Origin: Actinacidiphila bryophytorum
Lineage (GTDB): Bacteria; Actinomycetota; Actinomycetes; Streptomycetales; Streptomycetaceae
Length of the DNA: 64,000 nt
Direction of reading: 5' to 3'
Assembly: GCF_016916835.1 (NCBI RefSeq)
Contig: NZ_JAFFIX010000005.1
Location: 186,001-250,000 of the forward strand
Position numbers and translations under genes: made by a program. This document shows positions 2,461 to 5,643 of this stretch, piece after piece. How positions within the stretch are numbered: the first letter of the stretch is position 1; each line of letters opens with the position of its first letter. The notes below the pieces were generated by a model, which saw nothing but the letters and a program-made list of their open reading frames with translations, was not told the DNA's origin and made no database searches.

Positions 2461-4755
2461 TCAGCGGCGCGTGGGGTCCGCCACTTCCAACCGGATGACG
2501 ACGGACTTCGCCGCGGGTGTGTTGCTGGTGTCCGCGGTGTGGTCCAGCGGGATCAGGACGTTGGTCTCCGGGTAGTACGCGGCCGCGCAGCCCCTCGGCG
2601 TCGGGTAGTGCACGACGCGGAAACCGTCCGCACGCCGCTCGCTGCCGTCGGTCCACTCGCTGACCAGGTCCGCGTAGTCCCCGTCGCGCAGCCCCGCTGC
2701 GGCGGCGTCCCCGGGGTGCACCAGCACCACCCGGCGGCCGCCCTTGATGCCCCGGTAGCGGTCGTCCAGGCCGTAGATGGTGGTGTTGTACTGGTCGTGC
2801 GAGCGCAGCGTCTGCAGCAGCAGCCGCCCTTCCGGCACCTGCGGGTATTCCAGCGGCGCCGCCGTGAAGTTGGCCTTGCCGGTGGCGGTGGGGAAGGTCC
2901 GCGAGTCCCGCGGGGCGTGCGGCAGGGTGAAGCCGCCGGGCCTGCGCACCTTGGCGTTGAAGTCGCCGAAGCCGGGCACGACCCGCGAGATGCGGTCCCT
3001 GATCAGGTCGTAGTCCTGCTCGAAGTCCGCCCAGGGCACCCGGCTGCGGTCCCCGAAGACCGCCCTGGCCAGCCGCGAGACGATCGCCGGCTCCGACAGC
3101 AGCTGCGGCGACGCGGGCGCCAGGCCCCCGCGGGAGGCGTGCACCATGCCCATCGAGTCCTCGACGCTGACGAACTGCTCACCGCCCGCCTGCCGGTCCT
3201 TCTCCGTACGCCCCAGCGTCGGCAGGATCAGCGCACGCGCCCCCGTCACCACGTGCGAGCGGTTCAGCTTCGTCGACACGTGCACCGTCAGCCGGGCCTG
3301 CCGCATCGCCGCCTCGGTCACCGCGGTGTCGGGCGAGGCGGCCACGAAGTTGCCGCCCATGGCGAAGAAGACCTTCGCCTCGCCGTCCCGCAGCGCCCGG
3401 ATCGCCCGCACCACGTCGAGGCCGTGCTGCCGGGGCGGCTCGAACCCGAACTCGTCCCGCAGCGCGTCGAGGAAGGCGGCGGGTGGCCGCTCGAAGATGC
3501 CCATGGTGCGGTCGCCCTGCACGTTGCTGTGCCCGCGCACCGGGCACACCCCGGCGCCCGGGCGCCCCACATTGCCGCGCAGCAGCAGGAAGTTGACGAC
3601 CTCGCGGATCGTCGGCACCGCGTGCTTGTGCTGGGTCAGGCCCATCGCCCAGCACACCACGACGCTCTTCGCCTTGCGTACCAGCGCGTCCAGCCGGTCG
3701 ATGTCGGCGCGGTCCAGGCCGGTGGCGCGCAGCACCTCGTCCCAGTCCGCGGCCAGGGCCGCCGCCTGGTACTCGGCGAAACCGTGGGTGTGCTCGGCGA
3801 TGAAGTCCCGGTCGACGGCGTCCGCCTCGATCAGCAGCCGCCCCAGCGCACGGAAGAGCGCCTGGTCGCCGCCGAGCCTGACCGGCAGGAACAGGTCGGT
3901 GAGCACCGTGCCGCCGCCCGCCAGGCCCGACGCCTTCTGCGGGTTGCGGAAGCGCTCCAGGCCCGCCTCGGGCAGCGGGTTGACCGTCACGATCGTCGCG
4001 CCGCCCTGCTTGGCCTTCTCCAGCGCCGACAGCATCCGCGGGTGGTTGGTGCCGGGGTTCTGGCCCGCCACGATGATCAGCTCGGCCTGGTAGAGGTCTT
4101 CCAGCAGCACGCTGCCCTTGCCGACCCCCAGCGTCTCGGTCAGCGCGGAACCCGACGACTCGTGGCACATGTTCGAGCAGTCGGGAAGGTTGTTGGTGCC
4201 GAACTCCCGGGCGAAGAGCTGGAAGAGGAAGGCCGCCTCGTTGCTCGTACGGCCCGAGGTGTAGAAGACCGCCTCGTCCGGCGAGTCCAGGGCGCCCAGC
4301 TCGTCCGCGACCAGCTCGAAGGCCCGCTCCCACGGCACCGCCTCGTAGCGCTCGGCCCCCTCGGCCAGATACATCGGCTGGGTGATCCGCCCCTGCTGCC
4401 CCAGCCAGTAGCCGCTGCGCCTGGCCAGGTCCGCGACCGGGTGCTCGGCGAAGAAGTCCGGCGTCACCCGGCGCAGCGTCGCCTCCTCGGCGACCGCCTT
4501 GGCACCGTTCTCGCAGAACTCGAAGGTGTGCCGGTGCTCCGGCTCGGGCCATGCGCATCCCGGGCAGTCGAAGCCGTCCTTCTGGTTGACCTTGAGCAGG
4601 GTCAGCGTCGCCCGCCTGGCGCCCATCTGCGCCCCGGCCGCCGCCACCGTATGGCCGACCGCCGGAAGCCCGGCTGCCGCCTTCTTCGGTGCGCTGACGC
4701 GCGGTGCGTCCTGGACGGGATCCCCAACGGGCGGCTTCTTTGCCATGCCCCCCAT
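2461..4755 (-). CDS. FdhF/YdeP family molybdopterin oxidoreductase
   Basis: About 764-residue cytoplasmic protein of the formate-dehydrogenase-like YdeP group. The N-terminal segment carries the subgroup motif DCPGCAWPEPEHRH, followed by molybdopterin-binding blocks such as SNMCHESSG, GQNPGTNHPRM and RGHSNVQGDRTMG, and a C-terminal molydopterin-dinucleotide-binding domain (TLRSHDQYNTTIYGLDDRYRGI). The in vivo substrate is not established for this subgroup; YdeP is linked to acid resistance in E. coli. The start is uncertain. In-frame GTG (4764), ATG (4755) and ATG (4746) all exist; GGAGGA lies 11 nt before ATG 4755 and only 2 nt before the GTG, so I prefer 4755. Convergence or operon partners are not obvious; the tRNA gene lies just upstream on the same strand. 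Confidence 0.88.
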   Translation of the reverse strand: MGGMAKKPPVGDPVQDAPRVSAPKKAAAGLPAVGHTVAAAGAQMGARRATLTLLKVNQKDGFDCPGCAWPEPEHRHTFEFCENGAKAVAEEATLRRVTPDFFAEHPVADLARRSGYWLGQQGRITQPMYLAEGAERYEAVPWERAFELVADELGALDSPDEAVFYTSGRTSNEAAFLFQLFAREFGTNNLPDCSNMCHESSGSALTETLGVGKGSVLLEDLYQAELIIVAGQNPGTNHPRMLSALEKAKQGGATIVTVNPLPEAGLERFRNPQKASGLAGGGTVLTDLFLPVRLGGDQALFRALGRLLIEADAVDRDFIAEHTHGFAEYQAAALAADWDEVLRATGLDRADIDRLDALVRKAKSVVVCWAMGLTQHKHAVPTIREVVNFLLLRGNVGRPGAGVCPVRGHSNVQGDRTMGIFERPPAAFLDALRDEFGFEPPRQHGLDVVRAIRALRDGEAKVFFAMGGNFVAASPDTAVTEAAMRQARLTVHVSTKLNRSHVVTGARALILPTLGRTEKDRQAGGEQFVSVEDSMGMVHASRGGLAPASPQLLSEPAIVSRLARAVFGDRSRVPWADFEQDYDLIRDRISRVVPGFGDFNAKVRRPGGFTLPHAPRDSRTFPTATGKANFTAAPLEYPQVPEGRLLLQTLRSHDQYNTTIYGLDDRYRGIKGGRRVVLVHPGDAAAAGLRDGDYADLVSEWTDGSERRADGFRVVHYPTPRGCAAAYYPETNVLIPLDHTADTSNTPAAKSVVIRLEVADPTRR

Positions 4756-4818
4756 TATTGCCACGCTCCTCCGGTACGACCCCCGACGAGGGGGGCCTAC
4801 CGGGATTCGAAGGCGGAG

Positions 4819-4891
4819 TACCCCGGGTGGGATTCGAACCCACGCTGGATGCTGTTTGAGAGCACTGCCTCTTCCGCTGGGCTACCGGGGC
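4819..4891 (-). tRNA. tRNA-Leu (anticodon CAA), short variable arm
   Basis: The minus strand folds into a complete 73-nt cloverleaf. It has a 7-bp acceptor (with a G1-U72 wobble), U8, a D arm with a GG in its loop, and a 5-bp anticodon stem closing the loop CTCAAAC, which gives anticodon CAA. A 5-nt variable region CCAGC, a perfect 5-bp T stem with loop TTCGAAT, and A73 complete it. CCA is not encoded. The anticodon reads UUG (Leu). Bacterial tRNA-Leu is normally class II with a long variable arm, so the 5-nt arm is unexpected. It may be a specialised or non-canonical tRNA. Confidence 0.85.
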
Positions 4892-4989
4892 CTCTTCGAA
4901 ACGAAGGCCGCATCGCGACCTCCGTCGTCCAACCTTAGCGGAGCTGGGTAGGCTCTAGGAGCAGCACCCCGCCTGAAACGAGGAGCACC

Positions 4990-5643
4990 GTGAGCGCCCC
5001 CGACGAGTCCGCCGCTCAGTCCGGCGACAGGTCCGACGAGCAGTCCGAGCAGTCGCATGTACCTCCGCTGACCACCCGGGTCGTCATCGCCGAGGACGAG
5101 GCGCTGATCCGGCTGGATCTGAAGGAGATGCTGGAGGAGGAGGGCTACTCGGTCGTCGGTGAGGCCGGCGACGGGGAGACGGCGGTCAAGCTCGCCGAGG
5201 AGCACCGGCCCGACCTGGTGATTCTCGATGTGAAGATGCCGGTGCTCGACGGGATCTCCGCGGCCGAGCGCATCGCGGGCGAGAAGCTGGCGCCGGTGCT
5301 GATGCTGACGGCCTTCTCGCAGCGGGAGCTGGTGGAGCGGGCCAGGGACGCCGGCGCGATGGCGTATCTGGTGAAGCCGTTCAGCAAGAGCGACCTGGTG
5401 CCCGCGATCGAGATGGCGGTGAGCCGCTTCCAGGAGCTGCGGGCGCTGGAGGCGGAGATCGCCGACCTGTCGCTGCGGCTGGAGACGCGCAAGCTGGTGG
5501 ACCGGGCCAAGAGCGTGCTGCAGACGAAGTACGGGCTGACCGAGCCGGCCGCCTTCCGCTGGATCCAGAAGACGTCGATGGACCGGCGGATGTCGATGCA
5601 GGCGGTCGCGCAGGCCGTGATCGAAGAGGTCACGGAGAAGTAG
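4990..5643 (+). CDS. ANTAR-domain response regulator
   Basis: 217-residue two-component response regulator. After a hydrophilic N-terminal extension (1-28) comes a receiver domain (about 29-147) with the acidic pocket at E35/D36, phospho-acceptor D80 (LVILDVKMP), T107 and K129. A coiled-coil linker (149-166) leads into an ANTAR domain (about 167-213). ANTAR domains bind paired hexaloop RNA hairpins and prevent transcription termination; phosphorylation usually drives dimerisation. It resembles mycobacterial PdtaR. No sensor kinase is adjacent. The GTG start has an AGGAG 5 nt upstream. A -10-like TAGGCT lies at 4949-4954, without a good -35. It is convergent with livF and separated from it by a strong terminator. 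Confidence 0.93.
   Translation: MSAPDESAAQSGDRSDEQSEQSHVPPLTTRVVIAEDEALIRLDLKEMLEEEGYSVVGEAGDGETAVKLAEEHRPDLVILDVKMPVLDGISAAERIAGEKLAPVLMLTAFSQRELVERARDAGAMAYLVKPFSKSDLVPAIEMAVSRFQELRALEAEIADLSLRLETRKLVDRAKSVLQTKYGLTEPAAFRWIQKTSMDRRMSMQAVAQAVIEEVTEK

Follow-up and report, generated by a model that had tools for sequence, protein, structure and literature searches.

A class I tRNA-Leu(CAA) in Actinomycetota and its probable exchange with class II bodies at one chromosomal locus

The only tRNA gene with the anticodon CAA in the window genome has a class I body, with a variable region of 5 nt. A long variable arm is taken by textbooks and annotation tools as a constant of bacterial leucine tRNAs. 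We consider it highly probable that the gene encodes an ordinary leucine tRNA, charged by LeuRS and serving as the only dedicated decoder of UUG, and that it occupies a locus that can hold either tRNA body and at which one body is replaced by the other as part of a whole DNA segment. This joint claim leaves homing aside, and within it we infer charging by LeuRS from published E. coli identity data. Many Actinomycetota have a sole UUG-cognate tRNA that lacks the long arm, among them Mycobacterium, Bifidobacterium, and most of the members sampled from the window's genus. An armless UUG tRNA is a natural test of what LeuRS requires, and close relatives that differ in one segment provide near-isogenic natural experiments on tRNA architecture.

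The class I tRNA gene and its conservation

The window is the whole stretch of DNA that was analysed, 64,000 nucleotides long (G000:C45:186001-250000), and comes from an assembly of 8.05 Mb in 96 contigs that is 100% complete and, judged from its relatives and the genes around the locus, of Streptomyces type. ARAGORN calls a tRNA-Leu(CAA) on the minus strand at 4818-4891 of the window, and the Rfam model RF00005 matches at full length on the same strand (4891-4819) with a score of 53.7 bits, compared with a cut-off of 29, and an E-value of 9.5e-9. These calls uphold the original prediction of a complete cloverleaf with a CAA (Leu) anticodon and a 5-nt variable region, and supply the strand, which had not been given. 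The gene comprises 73 nt plus the first C, and CCA is not encoded. The anticodon (4856-4858, minus strand) lies in the loop CUCAAAC, where A37 is found in 136 of 137 relatives, and the variable region CCAGC occupies 4844-4848 on the same strand. The D-loop (4871-4878, minus strand) has a leucine-type core consisting of A14, G15, G18G19, A20, A20a, and G21, followed by A22, which faces C13. The last base of the variable region, C48, pairs with G15, a position pair that is A15-U48 in most relatives. The acceptor stem consists of a G1-U72 pair and six Watson-Crick pairs, with A73 as the discriminator base.

Among the 63 tRNA matches of the window genome the anticodon CAA occurs once, in the class I gene. 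The other leucine tRNAs have the anticodons CAG, GAG (two genes), UAA, and UAG, and each is class II. No class II tRNA-Leu(CAA) was found among the 63 matches in this draft assembly of 96 contigs, and the listing of leucine tRNAs that had been proposed as a check for a normal CAA isoacceptor therefore returned none. It is possible that a class II CAA gene lies in an assembly gap, but this would run against the pattern of complete relatives. The suggestion that the tRNA is specialised finds no support, because it is the only CAA isoacceptor of the genome and has no normal copy to supplement, and a use outside translation is unsupported for the same reason. Because wobble could also let tRNA-Leu(UAA) read UUG, "sole decoder" is to be understood as sole cognate.

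A DNA search found class I tRNA-Leu(CAA) in most of 61 relatives, and the class I pattern occurs in at least 119 stretches of GTDB contigs, with Streptomyces, Kitasatospora, Mycobacterium, Bifidobacterium, Nocardioides, Cellulomonas, Salinispora, and Planktophila among the matches listed. The tRNA is conserved in many families of the phylum. Across 137 distinct class I sequences, 98.1% of stem cells follow the cloverleaf pairing, 18 of 20 stem pairs show compensatory change, and every sequence has a 5-nt variable region. The first pair is G1-C72 in 112 of these sequences and G1-U72 in 24, so that the G1-U72 pair of the window copy, although correctly identified at the outset, is a minor variant rather than an unusual feature. 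Conservation of the cloverleaf is far beyond chance, and a complete cloverleaf above the RF00005 cut-off, conserved and with compensatory changes, is what marks a functional tRNA.

It is very unlikely that the gene is a pseudogene or that its product is used outside translation, whether in regulation, as an aminoacyl donor, or in priming. The unusual body would fit such a role, as would the outcome of a scan for a sigma-70 promoter and a terminator at the tRNA locus, which found neither. Against this, the gene is the sole CAA gene, every arm is maintained by compensatory changes, it occurs in many families, and it is replaced by a class II CAA tRNA instead of plainly being lost. A decayed copy absent from relatives, the outcome that the original prediction had said to look for, is excluded by the conservation and compensatory changes. 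Recent plasmid-borne spread of the class I tRNA was also rejected, since the single match was to a record of chromosome size.

Immediately 3′ of the gene, at 4797-4811 of the window and on the same strand, TTCGAATCCCGG duplicates part of the tRNA's own T-arm, and a similar TTCGAAT stretch also follows the tRNA in locus L010. A past recombination event may have left this repeat behind, or it may be a site for an endonuclease.

Leucine identity and decoding of UUG

Leucine identity in E. coli depends on A73, A15-U48, G18G19, and A20a, with the anticodon and the variable arm of little weight (PMC9976931). In the 137 distinct class I sequences, A14 and A73 are invariant, A20a is present in 129, G21 in 121, and A22 in 136, while the Levitt pair 15-48 covaries between A-U (117 sequences) and G-C (20 sequences, including the window copy with G15-C48). 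This core is the same as that of class II tRNA-Leu and is rare among the 52 other class I tRNAs of the window genome, where A20a occurs in 3, G21 in 1, and A22 in 4. The family accordingly has what is expected of a tRNA-Leu in its leucine anticodon (A35) with A73 and in the core positions A14, 15-48, G18G19, and A20a, and departs from it in the long variable arm of class II, in place of which all 137 sequences have 5 nt. The variable arm is reported to be dispensable for leucylation in E. coli (PMC9976931), and is therefore a habitual rather than a required feature.

The features shared with bacterial class II tRNA-Leu are A73, A14, A15-U48 or G15-C48, G18G19, A20a, a mismatch at 13-22, and a leucine anticodon. 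In contrast, class II tRNAs have the long arm together with G9, G12-C23, and G13*A22, whereas the class I body has no arm and a core set of its own, consisting of A9, C12-G23, and C13*A22. Scored against the class I consensus, class II tRNA-Leu(CAA) has a similarity of 0.72, class I tRNA-Leu from phages a mean of 0.77, and other class I tRNAs 0.53. The window genome has one LeuRS gene above the family cut-off, and by analogy with E. coli this single enzyme presumably leucylates the class I tRNA. Bacterial LeuRS reads A73 and the core formed by the D-loop and T-loop, not the variable arm or the anticodon, so a standard LeuRS would be able to charge an armless tRNA. In this scheme the class I tRNA would be transcribed, receive its CCA, be charged by LeuRS through the core and A73, and read UUG.

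The dissimilarity of the class I body to the other leucine tRNAs of the window genome could also be taken to mean that it carries a different amino acid and that class I species have reassigned UUG or read it ambiguously, a proposal that we regard as exceedingly improbable. Orthologs from the contig that holds the window were compared with those of G024, a class II genome (212 pairs). TTG codons of the window genome align with leucine at 88.8% of G024 sites, close to the values for CTG (93.3%) and CTC (91.5%), and the reverse comparison gives 91.6% for TTG. UUG is rare, with 107 sites in these pairs compared with 4608 for CTG. These codon-residue statistics indicate that UUG specifies leucine in the window genome and lead us to reject its reassignment, and they lend no support to the non-canonical decoding of UUG that had been put forward for this tRNA. 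The leucine-type core and A73 also speak against reassignment, which is hardly compatible with a class I body that alternates with an ordinary leucine tRNA among close relatives. The leucine core and the alignment of UUG with leucine thus point to an ordinary UUG decoder in an unusual body.

Several known tRNAs share part of this architecture. Mitochondrial tRNA-Leu(UUR) is likewise a leucine tRNA without a long variable arm and has A14 and A73 as identity elements (PMC9976931), but it is organellar, is served by a dedicated mitochondrial LeuRS, and has a weak anticodon arm, whereas class I tRNA-Leu(CAA) is stable, is encoded on bacterial chromosomes, and shares one LeuRS with class II isoacceptors. 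The nearest published report comes from the Mycobacterium mucogenicum clade, where a tRNA cluster includes a short-loop tRNA-Leu(UAG) (PMC6582537). This tRNA is also a short-armed leucine tRNA in an actinobacterium, but it is an extra cluster copy beside a normal isoacceptor and has another anticodon. A mutated, barely expressed copy of tRNA-Met similarly places a CAA anticodon on a class I body; however, the tRNA described here is conserved, has a leucine core, and is found where there is no other CAA gene. Routine annotation uses the name tRNA-Leu(CAA), as for SCOt09 of S. coelicolor (PMC4932002). The accessible sections of a review of non-canonical tRNAs include no case of class I tRNA-Leu(CAA) (PMC7609411), and among open-licence papers we found no description of a chromosomal bacterial class I tRNA-Leu(CAA) or of a tRNA-linked endonuclease.

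Two tRNA bodies at one locus

The tRNA-Leu(CAA) locus is marked by a conserved neighbour, the gene for an ANTAR response regulator (4990-5643 of the window, plus strand; PF00072 and PF03861), which at most loci adjoins tRNA-Leu(CAA) of one class or the other. Across the phylum, the position beside the regulator gene holds either the class I tRNA or a normal class II tRNA-Leu(CAA), and the class II tRNA of relatives therefore has the same chromosomal location as the class I gene. In a survey of 299 genomes from the phylum, the true class I signature was present in 29, one of which also had a class II match, while a class II match was present in 183 of the 270 genomes without the class I signature. 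The mutual avoidance of the two classes gives a Fisher p of 5e-12 when relatedness is ignored. The one genome in the survey with both bodies, G253, has the class I tRNA at the regulator locus and a divergent class II CAA tRNA elsewhere; the latter (L294:1057-1142) has G37 and lies within a separate mixed tRNA cluster. Nearly all of the genomes that match neither pattern, the patterns being too strict, carry one class beside the regulator gene. For G048 the class was assigned through its endonuclease locus, and in G060, another genome matching neither tRNA pattern, the regulator gene was not found.

Within the window's genus, class I is present in 24 of 35 genomes and class II in 10, with the class assigned in 34 by our own count. 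Mapped onto the regulator protein's tree, tRNA class has to change 20 times, and well supported branches force at least 9 of these changes. The sequence comparisons thus indicate that one constant chromosomal position has seen many exchanges of tRNA-Leu(CAA) bodies.

The form of the exchange is apparent from the sister genome G012, where the flanks on the two sides are 91% and 90% identical to those in the window and the regulator protein is 99% identical. The segment that differs is roughly 190 bp on the window side (4747-4939) and consists of the tRNA with its own 5′ and 3′ flanks. It is unrelated to its G012 counterpart, which consists of a class II tRNA and about 0.9 kb of DNA with an endonuclease-like gene. 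An unrelated segment between flanks that are 90-91% identical implies that the bodies were exchanged as DNA segments, and rules out loss of the variable arm in situ in the window lineage. In six sister pairs the regulator gene is 89-97.5% identical and the tRNA gene 48-57% identical, with the break inside the intergenic region. Downstream of the tRNA, a molybdopterin oxidoreductase gene (2461-4764, minus strand; PF00384 and PF01568) is inverted relative to six relatives (G009, G031, G018, G025, G026, and G015) and shares its orientation with G012. This inversion is a rearrangement beside the exchanged segment.

The linked LAGLIDADG gene and the route of exchange

The extra DNA in G012 encodes a 260-aa protein that matches HTH_23 and LAGLIDADG_3. 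In 53 such proteins the motifs LLGxYLGDG and GLxxSDG, with their acidic residues, are invariant, and 44 of the 53 match PF14528. An AlphaFold2 model of the protein has a pLDDT of 93.6, and its top Foldseek matches in the PDB are I-Tsp061I and I-DmoI, both with a probability of 1.00, whereas a PDB search with the sequence gave only noise. Two motifs with an acidic residue, together with the fold, are the marks of a LAGLIDADG homing endonuclease. The protein resembles free-standing enzymes of the I-DmoI and I-Tsp061I fold in its two invariant motifs, its predicted fold, and its occurrence mostly as one copy per genome. It differs in having an N-terminal HTH and a gene that lies beside, not inside, the tRNA gene, and is known here from sequence and predicted fold.

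A copy of the endonuclease-like gene (L264:437-1216, minus strand, and loci L358-L387) is present in 35 of 61 relatives, mostly as a single copy at one locus, with tandem or broken copies in G036 and G020. All 30 retrieved loci abut tRNA-Leu(CAA), and in 59 of 61 measured cases the gene follows the tRNA on its 3′ side and shares its strand, usually at a distance of 85-111 bases. The gene also follows the tRNA class, requiring 5 class changes on its own tree compared with 11 on the regulator tree for the same rows. One endonuclease clade is linked to class I in 35 of 35 cases and the other to class II in 11 cases and class I in 4, an association with a Fisher p of 4e-8 that ignores relatedness. 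A mycobacterial homologue with 46% identity (G054:C1:4529783-4530484) is found away from the regulator locus.

Among driven models for the switching we favour homing. In this process, a cassette with the endonuclease would cut the allele that has the other tRNA body, and would then be copied in together with its own tRNA. We propose only tentatively that the linked endonuclease drives replacement in this way, with its companion body being the allele that it cannot cut. It is possible, at a similar level of doubt, that a selfish homing cassette has taken over a housekeeping tRNA gene as its immunity component, so that the architecture of the tRNA switches repeatedly while decoding stays constant. 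If the endonuclease does drive exchange, a selfish element would be altering a central component of translation. The G012 locus fits the replacement of an empty class I allele through gain of an endonuclease and a class II tRNA, and the presence or absence of the endonuclease-like gene, combined with segment exchange, is compatible with homing without being proof of it. However, the window's own locus has no endonuclease-like gene, and nor does the rest of its genome; four class I tRNAs are linked to the clade typical of class II; and independent pairs for endonuclease clade and tRNA class, although 5 to 0 in the expected direction, give p = 0.06. No cleavage site was found for the protein.

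An equally serious rival, to which we give somewhat less than an even chance, is that switching results from sporadic horizontal transfer, whether through ordinary homologous recombination or through phages, with the LAGLIDADG gene as a passenger or as a WhiA-like regulator of the tRNA gene. The gene is absent from many loci, including that of the window, and WhiA provides a precedent for LAGLIDADG-fold proteins that are transcription factors. This rival is harder to reconcile with the invariance of both acidic motifs, with the abutment of all 30 retrieved loci on tRNA-Leu(CAA), and with endonuclease clades whose match to tRNA class is closer than that of the neighbouring gene.

Transfer by phages would be consistent with the class I leucine tRNAs that phages carry. 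Such phages infect Mycobacterium, Streptomyces, Rhodococcus, Bacillus, Lactobacillus, Pseudomonas, and Synechococcus, and in viral contigs the anticodons of class I leucine tRNAs are UAA (73), CAA (26), UAG (17), GAG (5), CAG (2), and AAG (1). Examples are found in Mycobacterium phage Bonray (GAG), Bacillus phage P59 (UAG and UAA), and Pseudomonas phage ZC03 (UAA). These tRNAs have the same core as the bacterial family, but they cover all leucine anticodons and are auxiliary members of tRNA clusters, whereas the bacterial tRNA is restricted to CAA and is the sole copy. Phages of unrelated hosts commonly carry class I leucine tRNAs, with every leucine anticodon represented (L310-L317, and viral contigs from L391 onward), and phages may be a reservoir of the class I body. 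This distribution also bears on the proposal that body switching is selected, with one class escaping tRNA-cutting toxins, or phage or defence nucleases, that recognise the other. Phages face such nucleases and carry class I tRNAs for every leucine anticodon, but in the window genome the CAA tRNA alone is class I and the remaining leucine tRNAs are class II, and we consider selection of this kind unlikely.

The window genome has other odd tRNAs. Two low-scoring orphan tRNAs on one contig, with the anticodons CCA (G000:C34:226645-226719) and CAU (G000:C34:322478-322550), have nearly the same T-arm and D-arm and are additional to the normal tRNA-Trp and tRNA-Met genes. They are possibly a separate family of odd tRNAs. 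A second, divergent tRNA-Cys(GCA) is encoded at G000:C1:39534-39605, the normal one being in a Gly-Cys-Val cluster.
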